NCBI GenBank assembly: GCA_003194525.1
Contig: NBIV01000228.1
Coordinates: 1-64,000 of the forward strand
Origin: Gracilariopsis chorda
Taxonomy: Eukaryota; Rhodophyta; Florideophyceae; Gracilariales; Gracilariaceae
Direction: 5' to 3'
DNA: 64,000 nt
This document shows, piece by piece, positions 996 to 17,862 of the stretch. Both the position numbers and the translations under genes were made by a program. The stretch's first letter is position 1; each line of letters starts with the position of its first letter. Below the pieces are notes generated by a model. That model was not told where the DNA came from and did not search any database. It saw nothing but the letters and a program-made list of their open reading frames with translations.

Positions 996-1456
996 ATGAA
1001 GATCCTCCGGCAGAAGATGTCAAAGAAGAGGTGCTGGCAACTTTGCTTTTCGGGAGTGAGATCGGCAGTGCTCTCCTCTGATCTCAACCCAATTTTGGGC
1101 GAAGGAGCACCGACGTCGACAGAAGAATTGGAAGAGGCTGCGGCGCTTTGTGACGCACTCGCTATATCGTTTTCAATTAAACCTCCCGACACCACAACCT
1201 TCACGGCTGGAGTATCGCTGGCGCAAACGCTCGGCCGATTGTATGCTCATGGAGCCTTGTCGTTAATGATATATATGGAAGGCCAACAACTATCAGTTTC
1301 GACCTGGTACATGGCTCATCCTCACTCCTCATCGGGCTTGATGTTAAACGATTCTTTGACACGGCTAATCGAGAACTTCCAAATGTTATACGCTCAAGCG
1401 GCCAATGGATACAGTGCAACGCGTTTTCCACACTTATATCGCAGACGATGGGAGCG
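996..1456 (+). pseudogene. Copia-like protease region, left half of a split retroelement
   Basis: One plus-strand frame from 996 contains an ILGEGAP segment. Another frame from about 1200 contains IAGANARPIV, then FDLVHGSS and LLIGLDVKRF, which is the layout of the C-terminal half of a retrotransposon aspartic protease. The change of frame around 1170-1200 marks decay. The reading stops at 1456, where the large DNA transposon begins. If one copy of GAGCG is kept, the frame runs on into 14893 without a stop, towards the integrase of the same element. The open frame that runs to 1484 ends inside the transposon terminus, so its last residues are not native. The lineage is copia-like, judged from the reverse transcriptase downstream. 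The 5' LTR is not visible. Confidence 0.55.
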
Positions 1457-1478
1457 TCTGTGTTCTCGGAACGCTAGT
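1452..1478 (+). repeat. Left target duplication and terminal inverted repeat of the 13.4-kb transposon
   Basis: GAGCG (1452-1456) is followed by the 22-nt terminus at 1457-1478. The partner is the reverse complement at 14865-14887, with 20 of 22 positions identical. Confidence 0.75.
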
Positions 1479-1691
1479 ATTTGAGGCTAGTTTGGTCTGA
1501 TTGAAATATGTCGTCCAAAACTTCTGCAGAAAATGACGGATCGCGAATGCAGAGGTAATTTTCGTTAATTTTTTAGAATGCCAGCTAGTTTCGCATTCGA
1601 TTCTAGCACAGAGTCTTCCATATTATGAATGCAAAACGAACGCAAAAGACGTCGCTAGTTTACCGTGGAGTTTTGTATGTCATTCGCTAGA
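1473..1691. repeat. Left subterminal GCTAG repeat cluster
   Basis: GCTAG or its complement CTAGC occurs at 1473, 1486, 1584, 1603, 1654 and 1686, usually followed by T or A. Six hits in about 220 bp is far above the fewer than one expected by chance. The same motif clusters at the other end. A shared AATGCAGAGGT word also occurs in mirrored orientation, near 1546 here and near 14742 there. Such subterminal repeats are typical binding sites for transposases of CACTA-type elements; binding is not shown here. Confidence 0.6.
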
Positions 1692-1962
1692 TGTGAATAA
1701 CGGGTCTGGAGCTTAAGAACCGCTCTTACCAACCCATATCACGACGACACCCATCAAAACCACTCTCCACCGAGAGGCAGCTGCGTCTCCGTCTCCGCGA
1801 ACGTCAGTTTGAAGAAGTCGTCCGGTACGCTCTCCTCCTTCTCCTTCTTCACTCTCTTCCCCCAACCTCCACAACGCCTCTCCTCATCAACCTCACCATC
1901 CACCTCCCACCTCCTCTTGCGCTGATCACCCAAGATTCTCTCTGCCTCCCTCGCCGGCTCTC

Positions 1963-2627
1963 CTACACTCCTAAGCCCACGAGTCCCCTTCCTAGCGCCC
2001 TTCTTCGCTCCTTCCCTCCACCCACTCCACGCTTACCGCATCCCTTCAAGTCCTCTCTCACTATCGGCCTCTTCTCCCCAACCCTCCCCTTGCACACCTC
2101 CGCCTCGCTCTCCGCAGTCTCGGCCACAAACCGTACCCCCTCCTTCTCGACTTCCCCATCAAAGCCTTCGTCTCCAGGTCCAAAGCTTATCCCATCGCCA
2201 CTCACATACCTGAAACCACCCGTCATCTTACTACTCGGCGTCACAGTCACGGGTGAGCCCCGCCGTCCACCACGACTCTCCCCAACTCCACCTCCCTCCT
2301 TCACCAACTTCTCCACCTCCCGTAGCCGCGCCTGAAACCTTTCCTGCTCCTCCCTCAACCCTCCCACCTCTCGAACCACAAACGCTGCAATCTTCTTCCC
2401 CATCCCACGCACACCCTCTCCACCTCCTTCCCCACCTCCCTCACCATCGCCCTAGAACACAATGCAAGCACTCCCTCCAACCCTTCCTCCCCCGCTTCCT
2501 CCTGTTCCCGCTTCTTCTGCATCCCCACAGCCACGGCTTCCTCAATCTCCACAAGGAACTGTCCCCAGCTGCGCGATCCGCGGCCACTCGTCATCTCAAA
2601 CACAACACAGCTCAAAGAAAGCGGCAA
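1963..2627 (-). pseudogene. Broken coiled-coil-type gene, unknown function
   Basis: Two overlapping minus-strand frames look like pieces of one gene. The upstream frame (2627-2355) carries VVFEMTS and then a long Glu/Val-rich segment with MVREVGKEVERV. The downstream frame (from 2412) carries FVVREVGGLREEQERF and a basic C-terminal region ending at 1963. A frameshift, or an unrecognised short intron, is needed around 2400-2450 to join them. The order of words (VVFE, then a VRE[VI]G helix with charged heptads) resembles the plus-strand gene at 4984-5604 in the same transposon, which suggests related cargo genes. I do not recognise a function. The opposite strand shows a Pro-rich open frame that looks like a shadow. 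Confidence 0.4.
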
Positions 2628-3147
2628 GGATCAAAAGAAGCGGTAGAGATCGAAATAAGTGGAAAGCCTCCGGTGAGAACCTCACGCGCCAGCCGCTCCC
2701 ACGCATTCACTTCCCCGCCATTTAACCCCCTTCCAAAAACCCCCATACACTGTATTTCAAAATATCTAGCACTTTCCGCTTTTACTTTCATTTCTACCCC
2801 ACCCAATAACCTCTCTCATATCGTCACCCCCTCTCTACACCCCAGATGTACCCCTTCTATGCCCAATAAACTCATATTCTTTACCTCTACCGCCATCCCA
2901 CAGCCCCCATTTATATAAACCTCATTATTTCTTCTTCATAACCCTTTCCCCCTGTTCCGCGCACATTCTGGACCTCTTACACCACTTCTACCAGAAAGTG
3001 TTTCACATCTCCCTCGTCCTCACTTCTCAATATTGTGCATTGAATATGAACAGAAACGCGTTCAAAACGCATAGAACAACCGTTTGGTCCTGCCTTTAAT
3101 CTTCCTTCATCTAGTCGCCATCATCTAGTTCAATAAAGCTATTCTGT

Positions 3148-3158
3148 TGCATATAAAA
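3148..3158 (+). promoter_or_regulatory. Possible TATA box of the membrane-protein gene
   Basis: The sequence GCATATAAAAT lies about 75 bp upstream of the ATG at 3234. Similar distances are seen for other genes in this window. Confidence 0.4.
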
Positions 3159-3233
3159 TCAGACACACCTGCCCGTTCTCTCTCTCTCCCGTTCTTCATC
3201 AACAGTTCCGCCCTTGACCTAGCACCTCTAAAC

Positions 3234-4433
3234 ATGTTGTTCGAGAACTTTCGCTCCCAACAATACGTCTTCCTCCACAATGACTTTCGAGCAACTCTCA
3301 CGTTCGACATTCTCCCCAACAAAACCTACCTTCGTTTCAACAATTGCTTGAAGCTAGAGTACTGCAGGGACACAAACAAGTCATATCTTTCAGGCGCAGC
3401 ATCCATTCTAAGTGATGAAGTGAAAGCCGAAATGACCAACATTGACGAACTCCTGCGCGACAACCCCTCTGACCCCCGGTTCTTGCAAAATCACCTTCTA
3501 CTACAAGACCTCCCATACCTTCGACACATATCCAACTACATTCGTTCCTCTCAATCCCTTTCGAACAATCCATTCCATATGGAAAGTCTTCTTTCTCTAC
3601 TAATTTTCACCTCCCTCCTCTCCTTCGCCATTGGAACTCTCTACGGTGTTTTGAAACCAGTGGTCACCAAATTCCTTCTATCCGGCCATTCCCCCTGTGA
3701 AGCGGAGACTGGATATACCATACTGTACAGTATCATCGAGACAGTACTCCATATCTTGTTGTTCGACTTTGCATTCTCCCTTCACAAGGAGTTGTTCGGC
3801 TCCCTCTCTTTCTGCCCAATGAACCCCACTCAACATTATGGCAGACTGAGCACCATCAGCGCAAGATTCGCAGGATTTGCCATAGCTGGACTCCTCGCCC
3901 TGAACGCGAACATATTCGCCGCCTACGAACTGCTACCAACGCCAGCATCCCTAAGCTGTTCTATACGGAACGCCTCCATCGCGTTCTTTCCCGGTGGATT
4001 CTTCTTCGCCCTAACAGTCAACTTTGTCGAAAGATTGGCCGTGTACGCCCTCACAGGCCACCCGTTCAACAACAGAGTCCTTCTCCCATATTCGCCACAC
4101 TATCTCTCCAACATCATACAAATTTTTACGTCAACGGCCTGGAAGTCTCTTCGAAGAGCATCGTTACTGGACGACATCGTAATCTCCATTCGCACCTTTC
4201 TTTGTCGAGTTGTGCCCGTCTTCTTCGCGCACTTCACTTCGGAGTCCATCCAACCTTCTGCCTTTTCAACCCAAAGAGGTTTCCCTCCAATAGTGACTAA
4301 CACTTTATTCATTCTTCTCCTCGTCTGCTCCAGCGCTATAGACTACGAAATCAAATATAGATTCAAGCGATATATTGCAGCTATCGGAACAAACCCCAGA
4401 CCCCCAACCTCTAGGGTCCTTCCGTACGAATAA
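3234..4433 (+). CDS. Five-pass membrane protein, unknown family (transposon cargo)
   Basis: The frame is 399 codons from the first ATG. The frame stays open further 5', but only through a TTG that overlaps the TATA-like sequence, so I place the start at 3234. The N-terminal 115 residues are soluble, with one NKT and one NKS glycosylation sequon. Five hydrophobic segments follow at about 117-141, 161-183, 211-231, 249-272 and 353-369, and the tail is basic. There is no signal peptide or catalytic motif that I recognise. The gene is intact, lies between the ends of the 13.4-kb DNA transposon, and is read in the same direction as the methyltransferase. It may be a captured host gene. A transporter or receptor is possible, but nothing in the sequence selects either. 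Confidence 0.65.
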   Translation: MLFENFRSQQYVFLHNDFRATLTFDILPNKTYLRFNNCLKLEYCRDTNKSYLSGAASILSDEVKAEMTNIDELLRDNPSDPRFLQNHLLLQDLPYLRHISNYIRSSQSLSNNPFHMESLLSLLIFTSLLSFAIGTLYGVLKPVVTKFLLSGHSPCEAETGYTILYSIIETVLHILLFDFAFSLHKELFGSLSFCPMNPTQHYGRLSTISARFAGFAIAGLLALNANIFAAYELLPTPASLSCSIRNASIAFFPGGFFFALTVNFVERLAVYALTGHPFNNRVLLPYSPHYLSNIIQIFTSTAWKSLRRASLLDDIVISIRTFLCRVVPVFFAHFTSESIQPSAFSTQRGFPPIVTNTLFILLLVCSSAIDYEIKYRFKRYIAAIGTNPRPPTSRVLPYE

Positions 4434-4983
4434 CTTCTAGAACAACAGACCAACAATACAGAATACCTTCGTTGTCGTAGCCCCTTCATCTTCTATCTTC
4501 CACATTCCCTTCCAGTCGGCGTCTTTTCACAGCTGTTAAGATTTAGGATATGTGAGCTACATACTATGCTTCTCTTCTATACCCCATTGTAGAGGTTTTT
4601 CTTATAACTATCCCACTTTTTAATGTACGCGAGTGAGTTCATTGTACATTTTAGAAAGCGAGTGAGCTTGAAGTAAGATATCCAATGCCAAGGTTCTCCT
4701 TGTAGACGACTCCATACACGGTAAGAATTATATTTGGTTCATTCTGATTCAGAAACACAGTTAGACGCATATTGTAGTATTAACATATCAAGCTGCGTAC
4801 GTGGAAATCTGTTTAGATGTCGCGTAAGTACGGTTTTAGTAGAAAATTGGAGACCGAAATATTTGAGGACGGGTTAGCGTCGATACTAAATATCTCGCGT
4901 ACTATATAGCGGCTTTGTTCAGAGCTTAAGCTATTTTCCCGAAGTCGAGTGGGTACATTAGAGATGAAGAACTGCTCACTCTT
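4434..4983. other. AT-rich spacer
   Basis: No gene is visible. A TATA-like ACTATATAG lies near 4900, about 80 bp before the following frame opens. Confidence 0.4.
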
Positions 4984-5604
4984 TTGAATCACACGGAAGT
5001 CCCCGAAACGCCGCCCAGAGATGAAGCAGATGGTTATGAGGGAACAGAAGAGAAGAAGAAGACTGTTGGGCTAGGAGAGCTGGGAGTTGGAGTAATAGCT
5101 GCGAATGGAGGAGGAGATGCAGGTGGTGGACCGGAGCACAGATTCAGAAAGGATATGAAGGCCCGGGTTAAGGCTTTAAGTGCCTCGTTGAAGGAGAGTT
5201 TGTATACTTGTATGACAGATGTAGTGTTTGAGTATGGTGGCCTGTCTTGGAGCGTTTTTGATGGTGGGATTCCACTGGACGTGGTTACTATTGTTCGAAA
5301 TCGGATGAAAATGGCAGGGGTCTTGATGGGGGATCATGTGGAAGGGATCGTGGAGTGCTTGGTGAGGGAAATAGGAGCAGTTTATCGAAAGAACAATGCT
5401 CTAGAAGACAGAGTGACTGTCCTTGAAATGCAGCTTAGAGAGGCCGTTGATATTCCGGTGCACTTGAAAAACAGAGTAAACGCAGCACAACACGGGGCCG
5501 GTGGAGCAGGCGGTGCTCATAGAAGCTGCCTAGGGACGAGGAAAAGAATGGAAGACAAAAGTGAACATGTGGAGCGAGGTACTCTCTTGAAGAAGAAACG
5601 TTGA
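4984..5604 (+). CDS. Hypothetical coiled-coil protein with basic tail (transposon cargo)
   Basis: The frame is open from about 4930 but has no ATG until 5155 (residue 58 when counted from a TTG at 4984). Either translation starts at 5155 or an upstream exon supplies the start. The N-terminal part is acidic and then Gly-rich. The middle holds VVFEYGG and a helical charged stretch (VREIGAVYRKNNALEDRV) with heptad spacing typical of a coiled coil. The C terminus is Lys/Arg-rich and ends in LLKKKR, which could be a nuclear localisation signal. It resembles the broken minus-strand gene at 1963-2627. I do not recognise a family. A DNA-binding accessory protein of the transposon is one possibility, by position only. 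Confidence 0.5.
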   Translation: MNHTEVPETPPRDEADGYEGTEEKKKTVGLGELGVGVIAANGGGDAGGGPEHRFRKDMKARVKALSASLKESLYTCMTDVVFEYGGLSWSVFDGGIPLDVVTIVRNRMKMAGVLMGDHVEGIVECLVREIGAVYRKNNALEDRVTVLEMQLREAVDIPVHLKNRVNAAQHGAGGAGGAHRSCLGTRKRMEDKSEHVERGTLLKKKR

Positions 5605-5727
5605 CAGGTTAAGACATATGTTTCTGATGATTAAGAAAGAAAAGGACGACTCCTAGCTCTTATGTGCATCATGATATAAATGAGATAATGCTTTATTTAC
5701 GGCGGTACTAGAATGTATCTGCCATCG

Positions 5728-6417
5728 CTAATTATCTTCTTCCATATCCTCATCTCCCTTCTCACCCTCCTCTTGAGTATAAATGGCGTCGTCCGCATTA
5801 TCATTTCCATCTTCATTAAGGTAGCACGAAGAAGTGGATTCGGTGACTTCGCTCACAGTTCTTTGCGGAGGAAGCATTCCGGTCGCCCTTTCCACCTCTT
5901 CTCTAACCCCCCTCCTGCCACGCGTCAACGCTTCATTGCTGGCACCGACCCCCAGGCCGGCGCAGCTGCGCCGGGTGGTCGGTCTTGACATTGTCGGTCG
6001 ACAATGTCAAGAACGACCCCCCGTAATTTAGTCAAAAATCAACATTCTGGTGTCCGTGCTTGACATTGTCGGTCGACAATGTCAAGAACGACACCCCCTT
6101 ATTTAATCAAAAATCAACATTCTGGTGTCCGTGCTTGACATTGTCGACCGACAATGTCAAGACCATCCACCCGGCGCAGCTGCGCCGTTAGACCGACAAC
6201 CTGAACTGTGAGAACTGCGACGAATTCTCGAAGTTTCACCTTCCCCGTCTGTTCTGCAGTGCCCAACTCCCTCATTCCAAACAAAACCCTCCGACGTTTC
6301 CCTCCCTGCTCCATTACACACTTCGAAATCAAATCTATTTGAAGATCGAGGGACGTGAATCATCAGAACGGGCGTCTTCGTTCCTCGGTTGCCACGAAGC
6401 ATCTCCTTCGCAACCAT
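5728..6417 (-). pseudogene. Small acidic-tailed gene interrupted by a 228-bp palindromic insertion
   Basis: On the minus strand one frame runs from an ATG at 6417 to the edge of an inverted-repeat element at 6186. The same protein frame resumes at 5958 and continues to a stop at 5728. Ignoring the 228-bp insert (5959-6186, a multiple of three) gives about 153 codons. With the insert, a TGA stops the frame at 6157. The C-terminal part is strongly acidic (EDGNDNADDA, then EEGEKGDEDMEEDN). The start lies 57 bp from the methyltransferase ATG at 6474 on the opposite strand, so the two genes are divergent and may share a promoter. The function is unknown. Coding status is inferred from frame continuity across the insert. 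Confidence 0.45.
5959..6186. mobile_element. 228-bp foldback element: 42-bp inverted ends and 75-bp tandem palindromes
   Basis: The outer arms 5959-6000 and 6145-6186 are reverse complements over 42 bp with two mismatches. Each begins with the self-complementary core GCGCAGCTGCGC. Inside, a 75-bp unit repeats (starts 5984, 6059 and 6134, the last truncated). Each unit starts with a perfect 28-bp palindrome made of the arm CTTGACATTGTCG, a 2-nt centre and its complement. No gene is encoded. No clear target duplication is seen. The third palindrome has its centre inverted (AC instead of GT). Confidence 0.75.
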
Positions 6418-6473
6418 TCAAACTCGAATGCAATCTTTCGTGCATCTGTGCATCTCCCGCCGAAATTCCACCC

Positions 6474-9020
6474 ATGTCGTTCCCCTCCACTAAACAGGGG
6501 AGTACCTCAGGTGCACCCGTGATAGGGCATAGGGCTCCTGCGCACCCGCCCTCAGACATGAGCATTTCGGAAAGCTTCACATCCATCTGGAATGTGTTTA
6601 TGTCCGTCCGTGATGCGTACGCGGAATCGAAAGGCTCCGGGGTCCCTAAACGCGATGTCACATTCGAGAAGATTGTAGAGTTTATGCTACAGAATCTTCG
6701 AGCGAATTCAGAAGTGGTCGGATTGTTGGAAAGGTTCCTTGGTTCCTCCCACACCTCCTACAGCGACGAAGAGGTCACTGCTTATCTTTGCACCTCTGTA
6801 CAGGGTCCGACGCAGTACTTCCGACAGGTTTATCGATATGTGGCATTGTTCGATAAACAAGACGGGTCGAAAGACAGGCGTGTACGGGACTTTTACGAGT
6901 GGGCCATTGACGGGAGGCGCGGAGGTGGAACAGGGATGGTGCAAAGGGTGTTCAACAATGACATCTTCAAGAGGTACTTTCGCGGAGCCGCTACGGGGAA
7001 GAGAAGGGGAAGGTTTAGGACCGTTCCTGCTACTCGATTCCAACAGCTGCTGTACCTGTCGGAGGTAAAGCACATCGAGATTGAACGCACGGGTCGGGAA
7101 CGGAAGCGACGCCTCGGACACAGAAAGAAGGTGAAGGCAGTGAATTACGTGGAAAGTTTCACCATGTCTAATCGCATGTACGATCAGCGTATGGCGTACG
7201 GCGTACAGCACGTATGCAGCGCTTGGGACGCGTTCGCTGTCGTTCTGGGTTTCAGAGACTGCGAGCAGATGATGCTTCCTTATCTCCTTATCAACAGAGA
7301 CACTTTTAAGCTCTCTGATATTCACTCCCGAACGATTGGTTACAGCCCCAAAACCGCCGCGTACAAGCTGGGACAAGAAATGAAGCCGACGGTATCCGAA
7401 GACAATGTTGTTCCCTGGGCTATTGCTTTTTCGGATGACGTAGACCACAATATGCGTATTCTGGCCAGAGAATTCGTCTCGGATCTTCGGAGTATTGTAC
7501 TGGACAAGAAGATGTATGAGCTGAGTGACACGGAGCAATGGCCAGTGCTATCTAAGTTTACGCGAAGCGGCACGAACCCACCGGTTCGATTTGACTCCTT
7601 GTCCGAAGATATTGTCAAATCAGTGAAGGAAGCTTGTGCAAAGCATAATGTTCAACCCAGCAAAGCTTGGTCGCGCCCTACGGATGTACATTCCAAACCA
7701 TCCGCCGCTCCTGGAACCAAGAGCCACACGAAGAGCGTGCAGGCCGTTGGAAAGCAGAGCCGTGAGAGCTCCAATGGCTCCGGACAGACGGATGGGAGCG
7801 GTAGTAGCAGTGATGACGTAATTTCCACGCCTACTGCTCCCGCTGCTGCGGAGATACAGGCAACGGTGGACATTTCGCTGAACATCCTCCCTCCTCATGG
7901 GACGCTGGGGCCTGTGACTGCGAAGGCTATGAAGATTCTGGAGTACGTGATGGACAAGAACTTTGCGTTCTACTGCGTGGACTCCGAAGAGCTGGTGAAC
8001 GTTCATGAAATTGTTCCGGGAGGCACCATATCTCCGAGGGGGAGAGTTCAACTCTCTATATCTGACGCGCCGTATCAAATTCGGGATACCGAATACGATC
8101 GCATCAGTCACCAGAAGATGGTTTCGTTTGCCGATCACAACTCCGATTGCCTGCGTCCTGGTGGACACTTGTTCGTCTTCTGTTCAGGTTTTCAGTTCCC
8201 GATATGGTACAAGATTCTGACCGACTGCCAATACGTTGATGCAGACGGGAGGATGAAGAAGTCTTTCACCGCGGATAAGACGTCCCTGTTGTGTTTTCGC
8301 CATCGCTCAAGCCCGATGGCGTTCCCTGGTCGCAACAGCATTAGCTTGTTCCCCGTAGGGGAGCAGGTAGTGCATGCAGTTCGGAATGGCATTCCCTATG
8401 CGGAGCAGAAGACAATGGTGAACTACCATAAGTTCAACCATGTTGCCAGCCGATACCCTGGACATGTCGGAGTAATCGATCAGGTTCCCAATCATGCCCC
8501 AGGAGAGAGACTGTACTGGAAGGTGCGGGATGGGCAACGATTTGTAAATCTTCAGATTCGCCCGGAGCAGAAGTCGAGACAGTTGATGAAAGAGCTCATA
8601 GCACGTTTTTCTCAACCTGGAGACCTTGTGATGGATTTCTTCTCAGGAACGTTTACCACAGCACTCGCGCGCATGGAACTTGTTCCGCACAGAAAGTTCA
8701 TCGGCGGTGAGAAGTATCGTAATTGTTTCATACACGCGAAGCATAACGGTATAGTGCATATGGGAAAGTTAATTGCCGACAATTCCCTCAAAGTCAGTGA
8801 CTTGGAATGTGATGAACGCATCAGTACGAATGCTGTTGTACAGGCGGCACTTCATGTGGCCACGGTGTTCAGGAAGAGATCCAGAGGAATGCAATGGACA
8901 GCACCGAAGGATTTCCCGCATTATCAAAGGTTTCCTTTCCATATAATGGCTTTTATATCGACTTTATGGGGTGATATGGATCTTATCGGCAAGTATCTTA
9001 CTAAGGCTTTACATCTGTAG
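6474..9020 (+). CDS. DNA N4-cytosine/N6-adenine methyltransferase, beta-type motif order (transposon cargo)
   Basis: The frame has 848 codons from the first ATG; it is open slightly further upstream from a TTG. The C-terminal half carries the hallmarks of the N4/N6 DNA methylase family. The catalytic motif IV reads SDAPY at about 530-534 (the family form is [SDN]-P-P-Y, here with Ala as the third residue). The AdoMet-binding motif I reads DFFSGTFTT at about 721-729, followed by FIGGEKY. Motif IV before motif I is the beta arrangement. The second Gly of motif I is replaced by Phe and the first Pro of motif IV by Ala, so activity is uncertain. The N-terminal 400 residues are unrecognised, and a Ser/Gly-rich linker lies at about 425-480. 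A single TAG separates it from a SET-domain start in the same frame. It is divergent from the 5728-6417 gene. Confidence 0.75.
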   Translation: MSFPSTKQGSTSGAPVIGHRAPAHPPSDMSISESFTSIWNVFMSVRDAYAESKGSGVPKRDVTFEKIVEFMLQNLRANSEVVGLLERFLGSSHTSYSDEEVTAYLCTSVQGPTQYFRQVYRYVALFDKQDGSKDRRVRDFYEWAIDGRRGGGTGMVQRVFNNDIFKRYFRGAATGKRRGRFRTVPATRFQQLLYLSEVKHIEIERTGRERKRRLGHRKKVKAVNYVESFTMSNRMYDQRMAYGVQHVCSAWDAFAVVLGFRDCEQMMLPYLLINRDTFKLSDIHSRTIGYSPKTAAYKLGQEMKPTVSEDNVVPWAIAFSDDVDHNMRILAREFVSDLRSIVLDKKMYELSDTEQWPVLSKFTRSGTNPPVRFDSLSEDIVKSVKEACAKHNVQPSKAWSRPTDVHSKPSAAPGTKSHTKSVQAVGKQSRESSNGSGQTDGSGSSSDDVISTPTAPAAAEIQATVDISLNILPPHGTLGPVTAKAMKILEYVMDKNFAFYCVDSEELVNVHEIVPGGTISPRGRVQLSISDAPYQIRDTEYDRISHQKMVSFADHNSDCLRPGGHLFVFCSGFQFPIWYKILTDCQYVDADGRMKKSFTADKTSLLCFRHRSSPMAFPGRNSISLFPVGEQVVHAVRNGIPYAEQKTMVNYHKFNHVASRYPGHVGVIDQVPNHAPGERLYWKVRDGQRFVNLQIRPEQKSRQLMKELIARFSQPGDLVMDFFSGTFTTALARMELVPHRKFIGGEKYRNCFIHAKHNGIVHMGKLIADNSLKVSDLECDERISTNAVVQAALHVATVFRKRSRGMQWTAPKDFPHYQRFPFHIMAFISTLWGDMDLIGKYLTKALHL

Positions 9021-9224
9021 CCGCAAAGCACTCAGGCAAAGCTGAACGAGTTAGAGCCAGAGTTGTTGCGTGGTGTAGATGCATCAAGTTACTGGTGCGT
9101 GGTGGCGAAGTCTTCAGTGAAGCACCCATCTAGCGGGCTCGGAGTCTTTAGTGCACGGAATTTCACAGAAGGAGAGGGTGTTTGTCACTTCTATGGGACT
9201 ATTGTGTACTACGTACCTTGGTAA
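9021..9224 (+). pseudogene. N-terminal part of a SET domain, in frame after the methyltransferase stop
   Basis: Immediately after the TAG at 9018-9020 the same frame continues for 67 codons to a TAA. It reads WCVVAKSSVKHPSSGLGVFSA and then GEGVCHFYGTIVYY, which matches the opening strands of SET lysine methyltransferase domains (a G-x-G-V-F-A step followed by an acidic turn and the Y-G-x-I-V strand). The catalytic NHS/Y half is absent. A shifted frame stays open to 9381 but soon becomes Glu/Gly-rich. The end of the transposase gene on the other strand follows at 9435. This is probably a truncated fusion partner of the methyltransferase. Confidence 0.6.
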
Positions 9225-9434
9225 TGTATTTGATTGCTATGTAGGCCATTGCATGCCTGAAGAACGGGAGTTTAAGGAGTTGGTAGCCGTTGAGGAAGAA
9301 ATATTGGACCCCAGAGAGGAAGGGGAGGGGAAGGAAGACGGAGAGGACGGTGGGCGTGGAGAAGAGATGGCGGAGGAATGAGAAGTTTAAGAAGTTTATT
9401 GCTAGAGTTACCGGGTCTGTGTTTCTAAATTTGA

Positions 9435-12400
9435 TTACCTTGCGGTGGAATAAGCTCTTGCTCGTGGGTCGCGGAAGAATCTTTTCATATAGAACCGATG
9501 TTGTTGCCATGGAAGGGGCGGAAAGAAAGGTCGTGCTGGGTAGTTCTGGCGAACAAGATGCACGGAACTTTTGATGGCGGAGAAAGGAACAAGACCGAAC
9601 CAAGGTGGGGCATTGGGGCTAGTTTTCGAGGTTCCGTGAAGAACGGGGAGAATAGTATGGTCATGTTCATCGTCTGTCGCCCAACGGAGGGTGATGCAGT
9701 TAAGAGTTTCATCCACGTGATCAAGAGGATCTGTGAGTTCGAAGAAGCGGACGAAAGCATATTCGCGTTCACCTGGCTCATCGTCTTTTATGCGGAAGCG
9801 GAGAAGGGCAAGAAGCTTACATACCCAAACCGTGGGGAACTTGCAGTTGGGTGGTGGAGTGCTTGAGACGAGAATATGACAGAACTTTGGAAGTTTTGAA
9901 GGACCGAAGCTGGTGGTGGCAAAAATGCGCTGGAGAACAGGGGCCGATGGTTCTCTGAACCGGATGCATTTGAACGTTCTGTCGACGTTTTGCAAGGAAG
10001 GGGTGAAACCGCTGCGGATGAAGGCGGAGTTGGCGACGGAGAAGTTGAGAGAAGAGAGGGAGGGTGAAGAAGGAGAAAGTCCAAGTGCTTCGAGGCATAG
10101 ATTGTGAAACGGTGAGATTGCGTCTCGTGAGATTTGGGTGATGAACGATATGGTGGAAGAGGTGAAGATGTTTGAGAGAGAGGCATTGGAGCAGTTTGGG
10201 TTCGCCCGAAGGTACTTTTCTGCGGTAATTATATCCCGAAAGAGAATGGTAGTACCGTCGCGAACCATGGAATGTCTTCGAGCTGGGAGTGTGTGGGAGT
10301 TTGAGGAGGAGGAGAGGCGGTGGGGGATGGCAGTTGAGTTTCGAAAGCCTTCTGTGAGTTGAATTGCGTCGATTGTTTCTCTGTGAGCGGTTGAAGATCT
10401 TCGGGATGTGCGCCGATAATGGTTTTTGAAGAGTAGGTGTGCGTGTTCGTAGATGCCAGCGTCAGTGAAGTGGAGACCTCCGTATAGTTTGATGTCGGCG
10501 ACGATGTGATCGAGAAGGTGGAATTTGAGCGTTCCGAAGTGAGAAGCCTGGAAAGGGCCGAGGATGGAGACGCAGAGATGCTTGAAGTGCTTGATGAGTT
10601 CTTGGAGGGAACGAAGTTGTTGGTGTGTCCATTCTGAGGTGGTGTTGTAGTGGAGTGCGGTAGTGAAGAGGTCGGCGTATGTCATGAAGATGGATGTGAT
10701 GGGTGCTGTGTCAACTTCGTTGCAGCAACGATCGTAGAAGGCGCCTACGAAGGGAAACACCATGTCGACTGCGCGGTAATCTTTTGCCTCGAGCATGCCT
10801 TTGATGCCATCCGGGGTGAAGAAGCCGTTGAGGGATTTGCCCTTCTCTGCGGTGAAAAAGTCAATGTGAAGTCCCGGTGCGGAGAAGCTGACTTCGATAT
10901 CTGCGAGGATGTTGTTTGCATGGGTTAGAAGGGTGCTTCGAATGGATTTGAATGATCTCGAGGAGGAGCCAACAGTGGTGAAGAGATTGTCGGACTTCAG
11001 GCGTTCGATGGTTGCGAGTTTGACGAGTTTGGAGATACCGAGGTGGAAATTGTGAAGGGGTTCGAAGGAGAAGATGTATGGGGTGAGCAGTAGGGAAATG
11101 TTGAGGAGGGGGTAAGATTCGAAGAAGGAGTGGTAGGGGGAGAGGGAGTTTGTGTGCAGGAGAGATGCTGCTTGATATCTGAGAGTCCTTGCGACACGCG
11201 GTCTGCGTTGTAGTTCGGCGTTATTTGCATCCTTGAGAAGGGCGTCGTGTGAGGATCTTGTTTGGAGGGTGTGGGAGGCGGTTCGAGGGGTTAGGGAGCT
11301 GAGGTGGAGGCTGAGGTCGGAGCGGGGGACGAGGCATCTATGGCAGGGCTTCAACGGTTTTGTGCCATGGAGGACAGCGAGGATGTCTTTCGCTTCGGGG
11401 ATGTCTGCAGCATAGTTTGCGATGACTGGGTGGCACTGCCGGATGACCTGGTCTTCATCCCGGAAAGGAAATCCTTTGAGGGCAACAGCTGCGAGGGGCT
11501 CGAGGATGGTTTGCAGAGCTTCTTGAATGAGTTCCATTCGGGTGGTACGGGTGATGGCGGAGGAAAGCGAGCGGTCTTCGAGGGAAGCCTCGTCAGATGG
11601 GGAGGAAGGGGCTTCGAAGGACGTGGGGAAGTAGCCGAGTAGGGTGTAGTTACGGGATATGCAATGGCGGCGGAAGGAGTCTGAAAAGTTGAGGAGGGTG
11701 ATGTGGAGGGGGTAGGAGGTGATAGAGGAGTTCTTGAGCGAGGTGGAAGACTTGTCTGAGTAAAGCTGTACGAAGCCGATGAAAGATTCAATGCCTGTGA
11801 TGTTGGAGTGGTGCCAAATAACATCTGGGTCTTGAGAATGTAGGATGTGGTGCTTGAGGTCCTTGTAGACGCATGTACCGAGTTTTGAAGCCATGGGGTG
11901 AGCGTGTGCGGGGGAGCCTTCTGACGCGGACTGTCTTACTGGTTGGAAGAAGGTGTTTGCGCGAGAAGCGTAGCGGAGTTGTTTGAGGAGGACATCGACG
12001 GGGGTTTTCAGGTAGAGAGTTGCGGTTATGTTTGAGGGCTTGTGACGAATAGTTCTGGATTCGAAGCCGATAGAGCCGACGGCGTCCTCGAAGAGCTTTG
12101 CATGGAGTTCAAGGCAGTGGGAGACGGACGTTATTTGTTGGATGAGTGCCTGGGAGTCATCCGGGTCTTTGAGGAGGTTGATGAGTTCGTCTGCTTTGCG
12201 TTTGCCGAGATTGATGGCGATGGAAGCGATGTAGGACACAATAGGGTGGAGGTTGGCAGGTGCGGGGGTGCTGGAAGCAGGTGTGTTGCGAGGGGAGGAG
12301 AGAGAGGAGTGGAGAAGGTGGACGGCGTCTGCGGAGCGAAGGGCTAGAGCGAGCTGGCTGGAATGATATTCATCGTCTTCCGCGAGCGGAACGTTGTCAG

Positions 12401-12608
12401 TGGGGCGGTTTGAGATGCGAACGAAGCGGGAGTCTGCGGTCTGAATGCGTGGTCGTTTGGTGCGGGGTGGGAGCTGGGTGCCGTTCTTGGGAGTGGTGGC
12501 GAGGAAGGGGTTGGGGGTGTGGCGGAAGCGACAACGGCGCTGGTGTTGGACAAGGGAGGCGTGGAGTTTTGTCTGGAAGGAGCACCTGTGGAAGTGACAA
12601 GGCTGCAT
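9435..12608 (-). CDS. Plavaka-like transposase
   Basis: The intact frame is 1057 codons from an ATG at 12608. A zinc finger of C-x4-C-x12-H-x3-C form lies at residues 4-26, followed by a Pro/Ser-rich linker. The catalytic core includes FVQLYSDKSS (Asp near 285), YPLHITLLNFS, and a later PCHRCLVPRSDL (Cys 422 and 425) followed by TPRT. These words, in this order, are those of Plavaka transposases (KDZ/CACTA-related, RNase H fold), which cut and paste DNA elements. The C-terminal 200 residues hold an Arg/Trp-containing strand-rich domain. The frame is long, free of stops and ends near the SET remnant. It is the only transposase inside the 13.4-kb element and therefore its likely mobiliser. A long plus-strand frame opposite its start (12260-12784) is a shadow. 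Confidence 0.8.
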   Translation of the reverse strand: MQPCHFHRCSFQTKLHASLVQHQRRCRFRHTPNPFLATTPKNGTQLPPRTKRPRIQTADSRFVRISNRPTDNVPLAEDDEYHSSQLALALRSADAVHLLHSSLSSPRNTPASSTPAPANLHPIVSYIASIAINLGKRKADELINLLKDPDDSQALIQQITSVSHCLELHAKLFEDAVGSIGFESRTIRHKPSNITATLYLKTPVDVLLKQLRYASRANTFFQPVRQSASEGSPAHAHPMASKLGTCVYKDLKHHILHSQDPDVIWHHSNITGIESFIGFVQLYSDKSSTSLKNSSITSYPLHITLLNFSDSFRRHCISRNYTLLGYFPTSFEAPSSPSDEASLEDRSLSSAITRTTRMELIQEALQTILEPLAAVALKGFPFRDEDQVIRQCHPVIANYAADIPEAKDILAVLHGTKPLKPCHRCLVPRSDLSLHLSSLTPRTASHTLQTRSSHDALLKDANNAELQRRPRVARTLRYQAASLLHTNSLSPYHSFFESYPLLNISLLLTPYIFSFEPLHNFHLGISKLVKLATIERLKSDNLFTTVGSSSRSFKSIRSTLLTHANNILADIEVSFSAPGLHIDFFTAEKGKSLNGFFTPDGIKGMLEAKDYRAVDMVFPFVGAFYDRCCNEVDTAPITSIFMTYADLFTTALHYNTTSEWTHQQLRSLQELIKHFKHLCVSILGPFQASHFGTLKFHLLDHIVADIKLYGGLHFTDAGIYEHAHLLFKNHYRRTSRRSSTAHRETIDAIQLTEGFRNSTAIPHRLSSSSNSHTLPARRHSMVRDGTTILFRDIITAEKYLRANPNCSNASLSNIFTSSTISFITQISRDAISPFHNLCLEALGLSPSSPSLSSLNFSVANSAFIRSGFTPSLQNVDRTFKCIRFREPSAPVLQRIFATTSFGPSKLPKFCHILVSSTPPPNCKFPTVWVCKLLALLRFRIKDDEPGEREYAFVRFFELTDPLDHVDETLNCITLRWATDDEHDHTILPVLHGTSKTSPNAPPWFGLVPFSAIKSSVHLVRQNYPARPFFPPLPWQQHRFYMKRFFRDPRARAYSTAR

Positions 12609-12899
12609 GGTGCAGAGGAGAAGGATGTAAGTCTGTGGGAGATGAGAAAGACGTGGGAGGCGTTCCGGGAGAATATATGACTGCTCAGGAGCAGCAATCA
12701 GGTGGCATTGTTATGCACCAGAGAGGCGCGTGGCAGGCACGGCAGGCATGGCACGTGTGTGGACGGGAAAGTGGTTTGGAATGAAAGCATTCAAAGTTGG
12801 TAAATTTTTTAAGCGACGGCGAGGACTTGATTATTTCGCATGAAGAGGTTGGGAACATGTGTATACGAGGGTGTAGATCAGTGTGATCTTCAGAGCGTG

Positions 12900-14356
12900 C
12901 AATTTCCTGGACGCTGGATGTGGCAGAACGTCCTGCTCGTGCTTGCAGGTTCGTGAAGTGCAATTGAGTACGTCTCGTTTTTTTCGTGTGTTGACATGTG
13001 CTGACTCTTGCTACGCTTTCTATGTTGATGCGGGAGAGGGAGCAACGGCAGTGTTTTGGGATGAAGCTAGGGGCTTGGAAGACTGCGAGGAACAGGTGAG
13101 TTTGCTATGCTGTTCACTTTTCAAGCTGGACGAGGACCTGACATGTTTTGTTTCTTGATACGGAGCTATATGAATGAGAAGGGGTGGATCGAGTGAGCAG
13201 AAGTAGTTGCTAAAAGGTGAGTTAGACTGCGAATGTTATCTGGTAACGACTACGCGCGGAGATCTGACAAGATTTTGTTGCTGTCGCGACGAGTTATGGA
13301 TGCGGTGATAGGTGAGAGCGAATGAATGGAGAGCATAGAGGTGAGTGCGGTTGTGTTTTAGTTTTGCTCCGTTTTTGGATGGAGATCTGACATGTTTCTG
13401 TGTGTTAGCGCGAAGGGAGAGGCATGAGGGAATGGGTGCGAAGAACTGGTTGCTACAAGGTGAGTTTCATCGAGAATATTTTCTGGGACTGGCTACTTAC
13501 GGAGATCTGACACGTTCTTGTTTATTGATGCGAAGCGAGCGAGATGGGAAATGGGTTCGAAGAAGTGGTAAGTGCTAATTTTATCTGTTATTGGCTATGT
13601 ACGGAGACCTGACAAGATTGTGTTGCTGTTTCGACGTGTTGTGGATGCTGTGATAGGTGAGAGCGAATGAATGGCGAGCATAGAGGTGAGTTTTGCTTCG
13701 TTTTTGAATGGAGATCTGACATGTTTCTGTTTGTAAGCGCGAAGGGAGAGGCATGAGGGAATGGGTGCGAAGAACTGGTTGCTACAAGGTGAGTTTCATT
13801 GAGAATGTTTTCTGGGACTGGCTACCTACAGAGATCTGACACGTTCTTGTTTATTGATGCGAAGCCAGCGAGATGGGAAATGGGTTCGAAGAAGTGGTGG
13901 TTGCAAGGTGAGTTTAAGTGCTAATGTTATCTGGTATTGGCTATGTACGGAGAACTGACAAGTTTTTGGTTTCTGCTACGAAGCGTTGTGGATACCGTAC
14001 TAGGTGATAAGGAGTGGGTGTTTTTCTTAGAGGTGAGTGCGGTGGCGAAGTTATTTTGGATTCTTTATTTGATGGAGATCTGACTTTTGTTTGTTTATTG
14101 ATGCGAATGTGCGAGAGAGAAGTTGCAGATTGGATGAGGTTTGATGGTTTCTAACGAGTGTTTGTTTGTGTTTGCTTATTTGTATCTTCTGCAGGTGCGA
14201 ATGGGGAGGTGGAAGGGAGAAGGTGCAGCGAGGGGGGATGAGCAGAGGTTTGGATGAGGTACGTATGTTCGACACAAGTTGTGTTATTGGAGGCGTCGTG
14301 ATGAAAGGAGGAAGCGCATTCTAACTTGTTTCTTTGTGGTTTCGTTTTGTGACGGG
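12900..14356 (+). other. Tandem array of about 120-bp units with splice-like signals (possible micro-exon transcript)
   Basis: The core [AG]GA[TC]CTGAC or a close variant recurs at 13134, 13261, 13384, 13504, 13606, 13713, 13833, 13952 and 14077, with spacing of 102-127 bp. Three monomer types alternate, so like repeats like at about 329-346 bp. Each unit contains AGGTGAGT or a similar 5' splice site, the CTGAC word that fits a branch point, and a downstream AG, and so reads as a 30-51 nt exon followed by a 70-80 nt intron. Two putative exons (13166-13216 and 13408-13458) are exactly 51 nt. The array ends with two more intron-like stretches that have TTCTAAC branch-like words and CTGCAG or TACAG ends (near 14139-14194 and 14257-14360). 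No long protein frame is visible across it. Confidence 0.5.
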
Positions 14357-14504
14357 TACAGGCCTCCCCTCACCGTCTATCGTGGAATGGAAACCGCTTT
14401 CATTGTCGTTTCATTTTGCTCCAGGCGTAGTGTGCCTAGAACAAATCGAAAACGTTAACAAAAACGGCCTCCATTCCACGATAGACGGTGAGGGGAGGCC
14501 TGTA
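14357..14504. mobile_element. MITE-like foldback element with TA duplication
   Basis: The arms 14359-14396 and 14465-14502 are inverted over 38 bp with two mismatches and start CAGGCCTCCCCTCACCG. They flank a 68-nt centre. TA dinucleotides at 14357-14358 and 14503-14504 fit a Tc1/mariner-type target duplication. It lies at the end of the splice-like array, so the final acceptor there may belong to the insertion. Confidence 0.6.
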
Positions 14505-14583
14505 CTGGCGTAGTATAGATTCAAGATTATATCCATTAGACGAGGTAAAAGTGAATGAGTACCGCATCCGAAACGTCCATGTC

Positions 14584-14887
14584 TGCTAGATTTCATCGCC
14601 GATGGTGAATGATCTGGCACTAGATGACAAACATTCACCCCTTCACTGTTCGTAGTATTTATGCTCTAGTATGAATGAGAACTGAACGATAGACTGCTAG
14701 TTTCTTACTGCTAGTATGAATATTGCTAGTTTTCTCACATTCACCTCTGCATTCATTTGAGCTAGTATTTTGTGCTAGATATACTAGCACAAAAATTCTG
14801 AGATTTTTTTGAATGCCCACCATAGACTTTGTAGCACCCCCAAACTAGAAAAACTAGCACTCAAACTAGCATTCCGAAAACACAGAC
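14584..14887. repeat. Right subterminal GCTAG cluster and terminal inverted repeat
   Basis: GCTAG or CTAGC starts at 14584, 14696, 14710, 14725, 14761, 14774, 14784, 14854 and 14866. The last lies within the terminal inverted repeat at 14865-14887. GAGCG at 14888-14892 completes the target duplication. Confidence 0.65.
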
Positions 14888-14892
14888 GAGCG

Positions 14893-17862
14893 GTAATGAA
14901 CGGCTACGTGTGGAACTCGTACCACAAAATTCGTGAACGATGCCTACCCTGCTTTGCAACTGCGGTAGAAACTTGGACAAGACTGCAATCAAGAAGATTC
15001 ACCGTTATACGCACGCTACGGCAGACGAAATGAAAACGATATTGAAAGATGCGCACATGCTGAGCGATAAATTGTGTGAGACATGCGATGCTGTACATGG
15101 TGCGTGCAGTATCTGTGCCTCGACAGGACCCCCGATTCCGAAGAAGAAGATATCCCTGAGCCACATTAACGAGTCATTCAAACATTCAGTCCAAGCAGAT
15201 TTCGTAGTAGTATACGTCGATGGCGATAAATATGAAGTTCTAAACATCATAGACCTCGGAATCAACTACGGCCAACGTACAATTGTCCCTAGAAGAAACG
15301 CATTTGAGTTGTCCAACAAGCTGGAGTCGGAATGGATATACCACCACAGTGCTCCGAAGTATTTCAGCGCAGATCCCGAATTTACGAACTCAGTCCTCCA
15401 GAAGCTTCTTTCATCGCATGGAATTGACATCGAAGACCGCCTCTCTCGATCATCATCCAAGAACGGAAAATTAGAGCACAATAATGGCCTATTCAAGTCG
15501 GTACGTTCCCGCATAGCCAAGGAAAACACCCGAGCTTCACCGGCGACGATCATCGCACGTGCGTCATTCCCAACCAAACTCTTCCATAGCAATTCTGTCC
15601 TGAGCGCATTTCAGCCGGCTAGAGGATACTCTCCTTCCGTTCTAGGATTACCATCTACCGCAGTTCCTGAGGGATTGTTGATGGCACACAAGCGCACAAC
15701 AGCCACACGTGCCTTGCAAAAGGTTCTCAAAGCACACAACAATCACCTAGTTACCCCCCACGCACGGAAACCTGGAACATATATCCGGGTATATTACAAC
15801 ACGTCCAAGCAAAATGACCCAGTTCGATGGGTGAAAGCCAAATTCATTGGAGCCACACCATTTTATGTGAGGTGCAGACTCTCAGACCGTGGAACACCCA
15901 TGAAAGTAGCATATGAACACGTCAGGCTTGTCCCCGAAGGTAAATTAGCTGAGGAACTACAGAGTGGCGTGCTAGAAGATGTCATCGCAGACAAAATCCC
16001 TGACACTGCGCATGAAGAGGAAGAGCAGCCAGAATGCTCAGTGAGCGAACAGATAATGCTGGATGTGTTCGGCCCGGAAGACAGTGAGCTCGAAGACAAA
16101 GCACGTCCAGAAACACGTTCGTCGTTCTTCACTGGGACCGTATGCGGTGACCCTTCTCGAGATGTTGGTCAAACCTCAGTGACGGGTCCACCAGATGCGC
16201 AAAATAATGATTTTACAACCAACAAGCAGCAATTGTTGACACAGATATGCGATGTGTTAGGACGTTCACAAGTTACACGAAACAGAATGGATTGCGGACC
16301 GTCATGGATATTTGATAAGGCCGTTGAAGAAGGACTGGAAATGGTCTGGAAGGGGGCCTGTGTTGAATTTGACGAACGTACAGTTCCCCGTGATGCCAAC
16401 GTGATAAATTCGCATGTCGTGTTAAATTTCAAAAACGAAGAGAAGAGCCACAAAAGTATGAAGGCCAGAATCTGCCCTCACGGTAATCGCGACAAGGAGA
16501 AAGGTAACATTAAAAATGACTCGGCCAACGCACAGTTTAATATCATCCGCATTCTACTGTCCTTTGCCACAATACTACAGTTTCGAATTGGGTGTATTGA
16601 TATTAAAGAAGCTTACCTTCAAAGCTGACTAATCAAGCGCAATCTGTATTTTTGACCGCTTCGTGACTGGACGGGCAGGCGTGGCATCTTGTGGAAATTG
16701 TTGAAACTTCCGTACGGCACCAGCGAAGCAGGAGGACAGTGGGCTATGGTAATCTAAAACTGGCTCATACATACTGCAGGATTCCAACGAGCGTTCGGAG
16801 TGAGCCAGTTGTATATCAAGCGTACAGAGAAAGGGGACATTCAACTCCTGATTGACAAGCTAACAGACGGACCTACTGACTTCTGGCAGTGTGGAGGACA
16901 TGAAAAAGTTCTCTCAGATGTTATACCGCAGATTCCGTGTTAGTAAGACGATCTTCTATGACGAAATTAGATTCAATGGATGTCAGATACGTCAGGCCAA
17001 AGATTTCAAGATTGAACTCTCTTGGCAACAGTATATGGATGGGATCAGGACGATGAATATCAGCAAAGCTAGAAGAGCTATGAAGCACGACAGGGCATTC
17101 TCGAATGAAAATATTCTGTATCGAACCCTAGCAGGAGAACTAATTTGGCTCGGTTGCGGAGCACTACTGCAAGCATCTTGTTTTGGTTCTTTGTTGCAAC
17201 AGAAGATTCCTCTGACTGTCGTAGATCTTGTATATGCTTAAAAGATCTTAAATGAATTACGCAGTCTTTGGCCAATTATAAAATTTAGAAGATCAACAGG
17301 AAGAATCACCTCAGCCGAAGTAGTATCGTTTCCGGACGCATCGTTCAATATATCCGCTTCGCAGCAGTACGGAAAAATTGGTTTTATCACTGGTGTTAGG
17401 TATACTACGGCTGAAGGCGATGGGACTAGCTACCATCTAATAGACTGGACCAGTATGAAGCAGAAACGTTTGTCATACTCATCGTAAGGTGCAGAAATAA
17501 TTGCTTGCACGGAAGCCGACGACAGAAATTTCAACGTGAAATGCAAATTGCGGTGTATATTCCCATCTGAACAGTTCTCCCTTGTTTTGAACGTTGATTC
17601 TAAGGGACTCTTCGATACAATTACTACAATTCATGAGAGCAAGGAATACAGACTCCGCCAGACTGTACAACGTATCAGGGATTCATTCCAATCCCGGGAG
17701 CTAGGCACACTACGATGGATTCAGGGCAAAGTGAACATCGCCAACGCATTGAAAAAGCACAATCACTTCATGCGCAAACTGTTGAATTATGTCGCAGCTA
17801 CAGGGATGTTATTGCTACCGGATCATAGAACGTTTAGCCATAACAGTAAGACATGGACTTAG
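14893..17862 (+). pseudogene. Copia-like integrase, reverse transcriptase and RNase H, right half of the split retroelement
   Basis: A 562-codon frame (14940-16628) holds the integrase. It has a His/Cys zinc-binding region (HRYTHATADEM, then CETCDAVHGACSIC), an Asp at QADFVVVYVDG, a second Asp at FSADPEF and a Glu in GKLEHNN. It then runs into a copia-type reverse transcriptase start (KARICPHGN, then DIKEAYLQS). Frame breaks follow at 16626 and afterwards. Further pieces show RT thumb-like sequence (16891-17241) and RNase H pieces (FPDASFNISASQQYGKIGFI; later WIQGKVNIANALKK near 17740). No YVDD motif survives. A frameshift near 14940 separates it from the junction with 1456. It is a dead copy of a different copia lineage from the two elements downstream. 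Confidence 0.75.

Follow-up and report, generated by a model that had tools for sequence, protein, structure and literature searches.

Described relatives and the element in the window

Transposons that carry single epigenetic enzymes are already known: Kojima (2025; PMC12730594) describes TET/JBP genes in fungal Plavaka elements and cites SET genes both in HarbingerS elements and in MuDR elements of the oomycete Phytophthora, and C5 DNA methyltransferases occur in retrotransposons of dinoflagellates and charophytes (PMC5890265). Giant Plavaka repeats, with cargo described as tyrosine recombinases, have been reported from Amoebidium (PMC11244446). The element considered here is a Plavaka-type DNA transposon of 13,434 bp that lies inside a copia gene, at 1455-14888 of a 64,000-nucleotide stretch from the red alga Gracilariopsis chorda (GenBank assembly GCA_003194525.1, contig NBIV01000228.1, positions 1 to 64,000 of the forward strand; the whole of this stretch is called the window in what follows). 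In sister copies elsewhere in the same genome its cargo includes a DNA amino-methyltransferase and a SET domain fused within one reading frame.

With the fungal elements, as they are set out in the accessible text of PMC12730594, it shares the transposase family, the presence of an epigenetic enzyme as cargo and 2-bp duplications like those of PlavakaA. However, the fungal ends read TGT..ACA (PlavakaA) or CATCA..TGATG (PlavakaB), whereas those found here, CGTC[T/G]GTG..CAC[A/C]GACG, fit neither of these, nor the CA..TG of most of the CMCT clade, and where the fungal cargo is TET/JBP it is here an amino-methyltransferase–SET fusion in a red-algal host. HarbingerS and the Phytophthora MuDR elements are alike in being DNA transposons with a SET gene, but their transposases differ, and a DNA-methyltransferase fusion is not mentioned in the available part of the paper that cites them. 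The elements of PMC5890265, so far as its accessible text describes them, likewise encode a DNA methyltransferase, but this is a C5-cytosine enzyme and its carrier a retrotransposon, where the DNA transposon here has an amino-methyltransferase joined to SET; the Amoebidium repeats are similarly large, gene-rich and provided with a Plavaka transposase, but the amino-methyltransferase–SET protein present here goes unmentioned in the available portion of PMC11244446. Bacterial-type DNA amino-methylation in a eukaryote has a parallel in the N4-methylcytosine (4mC) methyltransferase of bdelloid rotifers (accessible text of PMC8885841), and red-alga terms are absent from the accessible main text of a survey of N6-methyladenine (6mA) across eukaryotes (PMC12695648).

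An earlier note on this DNA, made from the sequence alone, knew of no described element that joined such a transposase to these two domains, and in the literature searched (partial listings, with subscription papers and Repbase reports outside their scope) no amino-methyltransferase–SET fusion in a DNA transposon was found. The element is a real transposon whose cargo combination was not found described. The rotifer enzyme is reportedly a host one, unlike the transposon-encoded enzyme here.

Limits of the element and its insertion site

The left terminal inverted repeat (CGTCTGTGTTCTCGGAACGCTAGT, 1455-1478, plus strand) and the reverse complement of the right end (CGTCTGTGTTTTCGGAATGCTAGT, 14865-14888, minus strand) are alike at 22 of 24 positions, which slightly corrects the 20 of 22 first noticed. 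These ends recur as a pair when the genome (91.3 Mb in 1081 contigs) is searched: a query of the left 165 bp, from 1456 on, finds 29 places including the window, 23 of them from its first base, and one of the right 202 bp finds 25, again including the window, with 24 of these beginning within the first 8 bases of the query. Since the terminus starts CGTCTGTG and finishes CACAGACG in the ten paired copies compared, the element runs from 1455 to 14888 and has AG on both sides, at 1453-1454 and 14889-14890, which are taken as the two copies of the target-site duplication by the 2-bp rule of a sister family (family 2a, described below; the window's own is family 1).

Among 24 further end pairs of family 2a, the 20 that were fetched (C1007, C281, C669 and C192 were not included) all show an exact 2-bp duplication and none shows one of 3, 4 or 5 bp, and C53 supplies one more pair with 2 bp; the earlier note had suggested looking for duplications of 4-5 bp. 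In ten family-1-type pairs read by eye, four (C228, C330, C320 and C98) have a 2-bp duplication with exact ends, and three more (C28, C125 and C53b) have one if mutated end bases are allowed. The GAGCG that was initially taken for the duplication can be ruled out, as its CG belongs to the ends of the element; the appearance arises from a CG at either extremity of the element together with the CGG that follows AG in the host.

The interrupted host gene is a copia gene on the plus strand, with its upstream part at 990-1454 (an open frame) and its downstream part at 14891-16625 (open frame 14937-16625, with RVT_2 below cut-off). Seven other places in the genome match 1100-1455. Six of these lack the insert, and all six (C3:61 kb, C378, C274, C206, C10 and C941) run uninterrupted across the joint, bearing out the prediction that excision would restore a continuous copia gene; they are 85-94% identical to the interrupted gene and collinear with it at the letters read, the only departures being a single 1-bp indel in L059 and another in L064, 14-16 bp away from the joint. 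The seventh, C3:355 kb, carries the element. This copy (C3:354400-369500) agrees with the window's left flank at 99.7% over 982 bp and has the same insertion point, but its right flank gives no match to that of the window, a case of duplication combined with rearrangement; some copies are therefore rearranged.

Transposase and element families

The proposal of a single DNA transposon has thus held good, bounded as the element is by recurring termini within an interrupted copia gene, and the only transposase in it is indeed Plavaka-like: a 1091-aa open frame on the minus strand (9438-12710), convergent to the methyltransferase, matches the Plavaka model PF18759 at 82.8 bits (cut-off 26.3; E-value 3.5e-23) and aligns over 764 aa with the family-2a transposase at 52% identity. 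CHRC and HNFH, whose C and H residues are conserved in both transposases aligned, are candidates for the motifs C(2)C and H(3-4)H that the clade has between its catalytic residues; the first has the C(2)C spacing, the second H(2)H rather than H(3-4)H. The 2-bp duplications of family 2a lie within the 2-5 bp given for the Plavaka superfamily (CMCT clade). By its transposase the element is a Plavaka; placement in PlavakaA or PlavakaB is not shown.

Genome searches for Plavaka, the methyltransferase, the membrane and small proteins and the family-2a ends scored the best candidates only, and all counts from them are lower bounds. The methyltransferase frame has at least 60 matches (the best 48 of 345 candidates scored), merged by hand to 39 loci, with the start of C192 approximate; Plavaka places, counted with the Pfam model, number at least 114, of which 113 were used in the pairing count, along with 83 merged membrane-protein and 124 merged small-protein places. 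With distances taken between the lower coordinates of matches, a Plavaka gene lies 3.6-8.3 kb downstream of the methyltransferase at 24 of the 39 loci and is on the opposite strand, hence convergent, at all 24 (one of them, C192, has an additional same-strand Plavaka 15.6 kb away). The remaining 15 loci have no Plavaka inside 16 kb; four of them (C179, C435, C327 and C370) are no more than 7 kb from the contig end on that side.

Within family 1 most of the methyltransferases are 83-96% identical and a few older copies have identities of 47-76%, while those of family 2a (C53, C332, C241, C48 and C745), family 2b and C96 are 33-35% identical to that of the window. The termini of family 2a are those of family 1 with one letter different (CGTCGGTG), and window positions 14861-14889 also match a family-2a end; alignment between the ends of families 1 and 2a is confined to the outermost 29 bp or so on the right. 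The 200-bp ends of family 2a are found at at least 40 places each (117 and 129 candidates) with 98-100% identity among the matches listed, and its movement therefore looks recent. The 20 fetched family-2a copies span 5.6-11.2 kb, many of them with the membrane and small proteins (e.g. C14:325957-332971). Some two-ended family-1-type elements (C28, C320 and C53b) have no methyltransferase match. The window copy is older and partly deleted, a relative of copies whose movement appears to be recent.

The methyltransferase–SET fusion

In the window, a frame of 942 aa from stop to stop (6192-9017, plus strand) contains an N6_N4_Mtase domain at residues 619-844 (approximately 8046-8723; PF01555, 5.5e-12). 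It is followed at 9018-9221 by a TAG stop, where sister copies have TGG, and then by an in-frame SET remnant that is cut off. The earlier note had recognised both domains, correctly, but had treated the SET as a separate remnant. A separate SET gene can be ruled out, as the SET is the C-terminal part of a fusion: the three sister copies read (C53, C332 and C241) have N6_N4_Mtase and a whole SET in a single intact frame of 1065 aa. In C332 the former scores 3.6e-18 and the latter 2.2e-4, at 22.0 bits just under the 22.4-bit cut-off of PF00856; that cut-off is exceeded in C241 (22.9 bits) and in fragments of C435 (25.4) and C46 (30.3), while C460 falls below it at 20.2 bits and the methyltransferase in a C96 fragment reaches 22.7 bits against its cut-off of 26.7. 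In the 12 loci compared for the SET stretch (C249, C179 and C1065 being uninformative, as they were read in the wrong direction), the domain stops after about 30 residues in the window and is truncated in the same way in C3, C12 and C327, while in C435, C192, C94, C473 and C346 it extends further, with frameshifts or stops in some.

DNA amino-methyltransferases of the N6_N4 kind (beta-class order) have a motif IV of the form (D/N/S)PP(Y/F/W) and a motif I of the form FxGxG. Motif IV reads DPPY in all 12 family-2-type loci and DAPY in the window; motif I is F(S/A)GTF across copies (FSGTF in the window), as against the expected FxGxG. The nearest solved structures with informative names are the adenine methyltransferases DpnA, CcrM, MboIIA and RsrI, and the best NCBIfam model is CcrM, far under its cut-off. 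Judging from DPPY and these named structures, N6-adenine is more likely than N4-cytosine to be the base methylated.

Among 7633 candidates, one relative of this protein was found outside the genome, P0001 of Pyropia yezoensis, with 26% identity over 40% of the query. By eye it has a C-terminal SET-like start, while Pfam is confident for its methyltransferase domain only and gives no SET.

CTAG clusters and palindromes near the ends and the fusion gene

The clusters of GCTAG that had been noticed at both ends correspond to clusters of CTAG, with 6 in the left 300 bp (1455-1754) and 11 in the right 300 bp (14589-14888), numbers that none of 1000 dinucleotide shuffles reaches in either case. In family 1 there are thus 17 CTAG in 600 bp of ends as against 21 in 12.8 kb of interior (shuffle mean 34), and in family 2a there are 10 in 600 bp of ends as against 14 in interior pieces, where the left end lies beyond all 1000 shuffles and the 3 CTAG of the right end are reached by 1 in 1000. 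Taking each family separately, CTAG is the most end-enriched tetramer (16.5-fold in family 1, 7.5-fold in family 2a). The first copy sits at position 20 in each of the ends read, five in number, and four of these have their second copy at 32-33; short copies without a methyltransferase match retain CTAG-bearing ends. Subterminal transposase-binding repeats are expected in CACTA-like elements; a palindromic CTAG would suit a methyltransferase target as well, and the data do not decide between the two.

Directly upstream of the methyltransferase frame, at 5957-6186, are three perfect palindromes of 28-30 bp (TTGACATTGTCG..CGACAATGTCAA), with a spacing of about 75 bp between GCGCAGCTGCGC palindromes. 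The exact core palindrome is found upstream of the methyltransferase in eight of ten family-1 loci checked. These palindromes could possibly be an operator, a hairpin or a nested repeat. In the matching place in C332, of family 2a, there is a 76-bp perfect palindrome (L067 4683-4758).

Interpretation

On balance we favour, with appreciable reservations, a reading in which this is a giant Plavaka-type (CACTA/EnSpm-related) cut-and-paste transposon equipped with a two-layer chromatin writer, by which its copies would be kept accessible. Its established parts are termini of the form CGTC[T/G]GTGTTYTCGGAAYGCTAG, the CTAG clusters, the 2-bp duplications and the Plavaka transposase, together with a recurrent cargo consisting of the fused DNA amino-methyltransferase–SET protein (the writer), a membrane protein and a small protein, to which longer copies add another large gene. 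The transposase, perhaps together with the small protein, would bind the CTAG repeats and the termini and then cut and paste. The writer, whose enzymatic role and target we infer, would methylate DNA on copies of the element and would also methylate a lysine of a histone or some other protein there; both marks would then keep the copies transcribable and open to the transposase, and short writer-free copies would be mobilised, and perhaps marked, in trans. We infer in this sense that the element may exercise its own chromatin or methylation control, as the earlier note had suggested. The window copy itself is an internally deleted, decaying member, with a stop after the methyltransferase, a curtailed SET, no copy of the further large gene and DAPY in place of DPPY; its writer is probably inactive.

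In favour of this reading stand, among other things, ratios of nonsynonymous to synonymous substitution rates (dN/dS). Between family 2a (C53) and eight 2b loci these are 0.14-0.19 in the methyltransferase and 0.16-0.21 in the SET domain, and on this measure both domains are shown to have been under past constraint between the sister families. Several observations weigh against our favoured reading, however. None of the 20 fetched family-2a copies overlaps a methyltransferase match, so that the writer is not needed in cis; with 48 of 345 candidates scored, the family-2a loci with a writer come to no more than five, a lower bound. The 2a–2b comparison is itself near synonymous saturation (dS about 0.9-1.3) and that with C96 is saturated, while within 2a the differences are too few for constraint to be shown (C332 gives 1.17 from 2 synonymous and 8 other, C241 0.42 from 7 and 10). 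Relative to the window, dN/dS is 0.77-1.24 in seven well-aligned family-1 loci (C3, C435, C12, C330, C327, C346 and C473), and motif IV in family 1 reads DAPY in 19 and DVPY in 4 of 23 records (with 4 more unread, and some sharing a locus). A matching duplication is absent from three of the ten family-1-type pairs (C3, C12 and C105). There is also no match to a C5 DNA methyltransferase (PF00145) in six frames of the genome, although introns could hide such a gene; the same search was positive in 10 of 14 control genomes, and the ten named are prokaryotes without exception, so that the negative has no eukaryotic positive control beside it. With no C5-methyltransferase detected, silencing by 5-methylcytosine may not be what the writer counters.

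The remaining family-1 ratios, from a comparison of 18 loci that skipped L010, L012, L016 and L019, are 1.9 for C125 (N-terminal part only), 0.56-0.70 for the more diverged C105, C98 and C1, and, for the poorly or partly aligned C94 and C370, 0.79 and 0.70. Since dN/dS is low between 2a and 2b and near 1 in family 1, the constraint is the older state and family 1 has been drifting; the methyltransferase of the window, with a ratio near 1 relative to near-identical family-1 copies and with its DAPY motif, is probably decaying.

Other explanations of the same facts need to be considered alongside this. Dam methylation times the transposition of Tn10 and Tn5, and methylation of CTAG in the ends could in the same way restrict the transposase to hemimethylated, just replicated copies. 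For such a timing device it can be said that CTAG is a 4-bp palindrome and the top end-enriched tetramer in two families otherwise little alignable at their ends, that it is depleted in the interior of the window element, and that it stands at position 20 first and 32-33 second; but simple binding repeats for the transposase, such as CACTA elements have, would account for a fixed spacing too, and those family-2a copies that are short and lack a methyltransferase match have kept their ends and look recently moved; we regard a timing role as unlikely, if worth keeping in mind. The same short copies, numerous among the recent ones, count in favour of the idea that the writer is instead a brake on copy number, its SET domain and DNA methylation repressing the element's own promoters and so limiting damage to the host, as do the palindromes that directly precede the writer gene in family 1 and in C332; there are, however, other reasons why short elements prevail in many transposon families, and the analysis gave no sign of repression, which leaves self-silencing rather improbable in our view.

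If the methyltransferase–SET gene were merely a passenger, captured or hitch-hiking without a part in transposition, then the mobility of copies lacking a methyltransferase match and the drift of the family-1 copies would follow readily. It is harder to see why a passenger should show constraint on both domains between 2a and 2b, why its convergent pairing with Plavaka should have been kept in families whose methyltransferases are 32% identical, or why a relative in Pyropia yezoensis should have the methyltransferase domain followed by a SET-like start (by eye, Pfam SET being absent); we think a passenger gene a poor prospect. The idea that nested unrelated repeats or an assembly join have simply brought chance neighbours together has in its favour the right flank of the C3 copy, which is unlike that of the window while the left flank is shared over 982 bp, but the same pairing at 24 of 39 loci, always convergent, together with termini that recur, 2-bp duplications and empty sites, refutes it for the element as a whole and leaves it next to no probability.

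A more speculative extension of the favoured chromatin-writer reading, to which we would give a small but real chance, is a self-contained programme of two marks, in which a single protein marks the same nucleosomes both on a DNA base (perhaps at CTAG) and on a histone, as a heritable label that distinguishes the element's own ends from host DNA and gates transposition, in a host with no C5 enzyme detected; the extra large gene might then remove or read the mark. A conserved protein that joins a bacterial-type DNA methyltransferase to a histone-methyltransferase domain, in an element family that has intact and near-identical copies, would amount to a natural test of whether a single enzyme can couple DNA and histone marks. 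DNA amino-methylation in a red-algal host would become directly testable, and eukaryotic DNA amino-methylation would be linked to mobile elements.

Other genes and minor features

Where the earlier note counted six or more genes, those supported in the window copy are Plavaka, N6_N4_Mtase with its partial SET, and two frames of 434 and 224 aa; open frames at 1697-2918 were unscanned or had no convincing Pfam match. The first of the two (3129-4430, plus strand) is, as had been supposed, a predicted membrane protein, with about six hydrophobic segments by hydropathy and no Pfam match, and recurs across families with at least 101 genome matches, 10 of them over residues 1-434. The 224-aa accessory protein (4930-5601, plus strand), with no family above cut-off, has at least 165, sister families included.

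The further large gene of the longer copies, absent from the window copy, encodes about 1,090 residues and lies upstream of the methyltransferase on the other strand (L087 284-3583 in C28; L067 1-3604 in C332). Pfam, NCBIfam and the PDB gave no relevant match for it, and the ideas of a ParB-like protein or a 2OG-Fe(II) dioxygenase were set aside on that ground. It contains a conserved HxD..H..R pattern, which does no more than suggest an oxygenase, and has two outside relatives, P0003 and P0004, among the candidates scored; AlphaFold models of P0003 and of the window methyltransferase (mean predicted local distance difference test, pLDDT, 29-30) were too poor for use.

Two smaller features were seen by eye in the right part of the element. 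Diverged direct repeats with GAGATCTGACA lie within 13100-14100, and in the right subterminal region, at 14357-14504, there is an inverted repeat, its arms about 35 bp long, which may be a small foldback element nested there.

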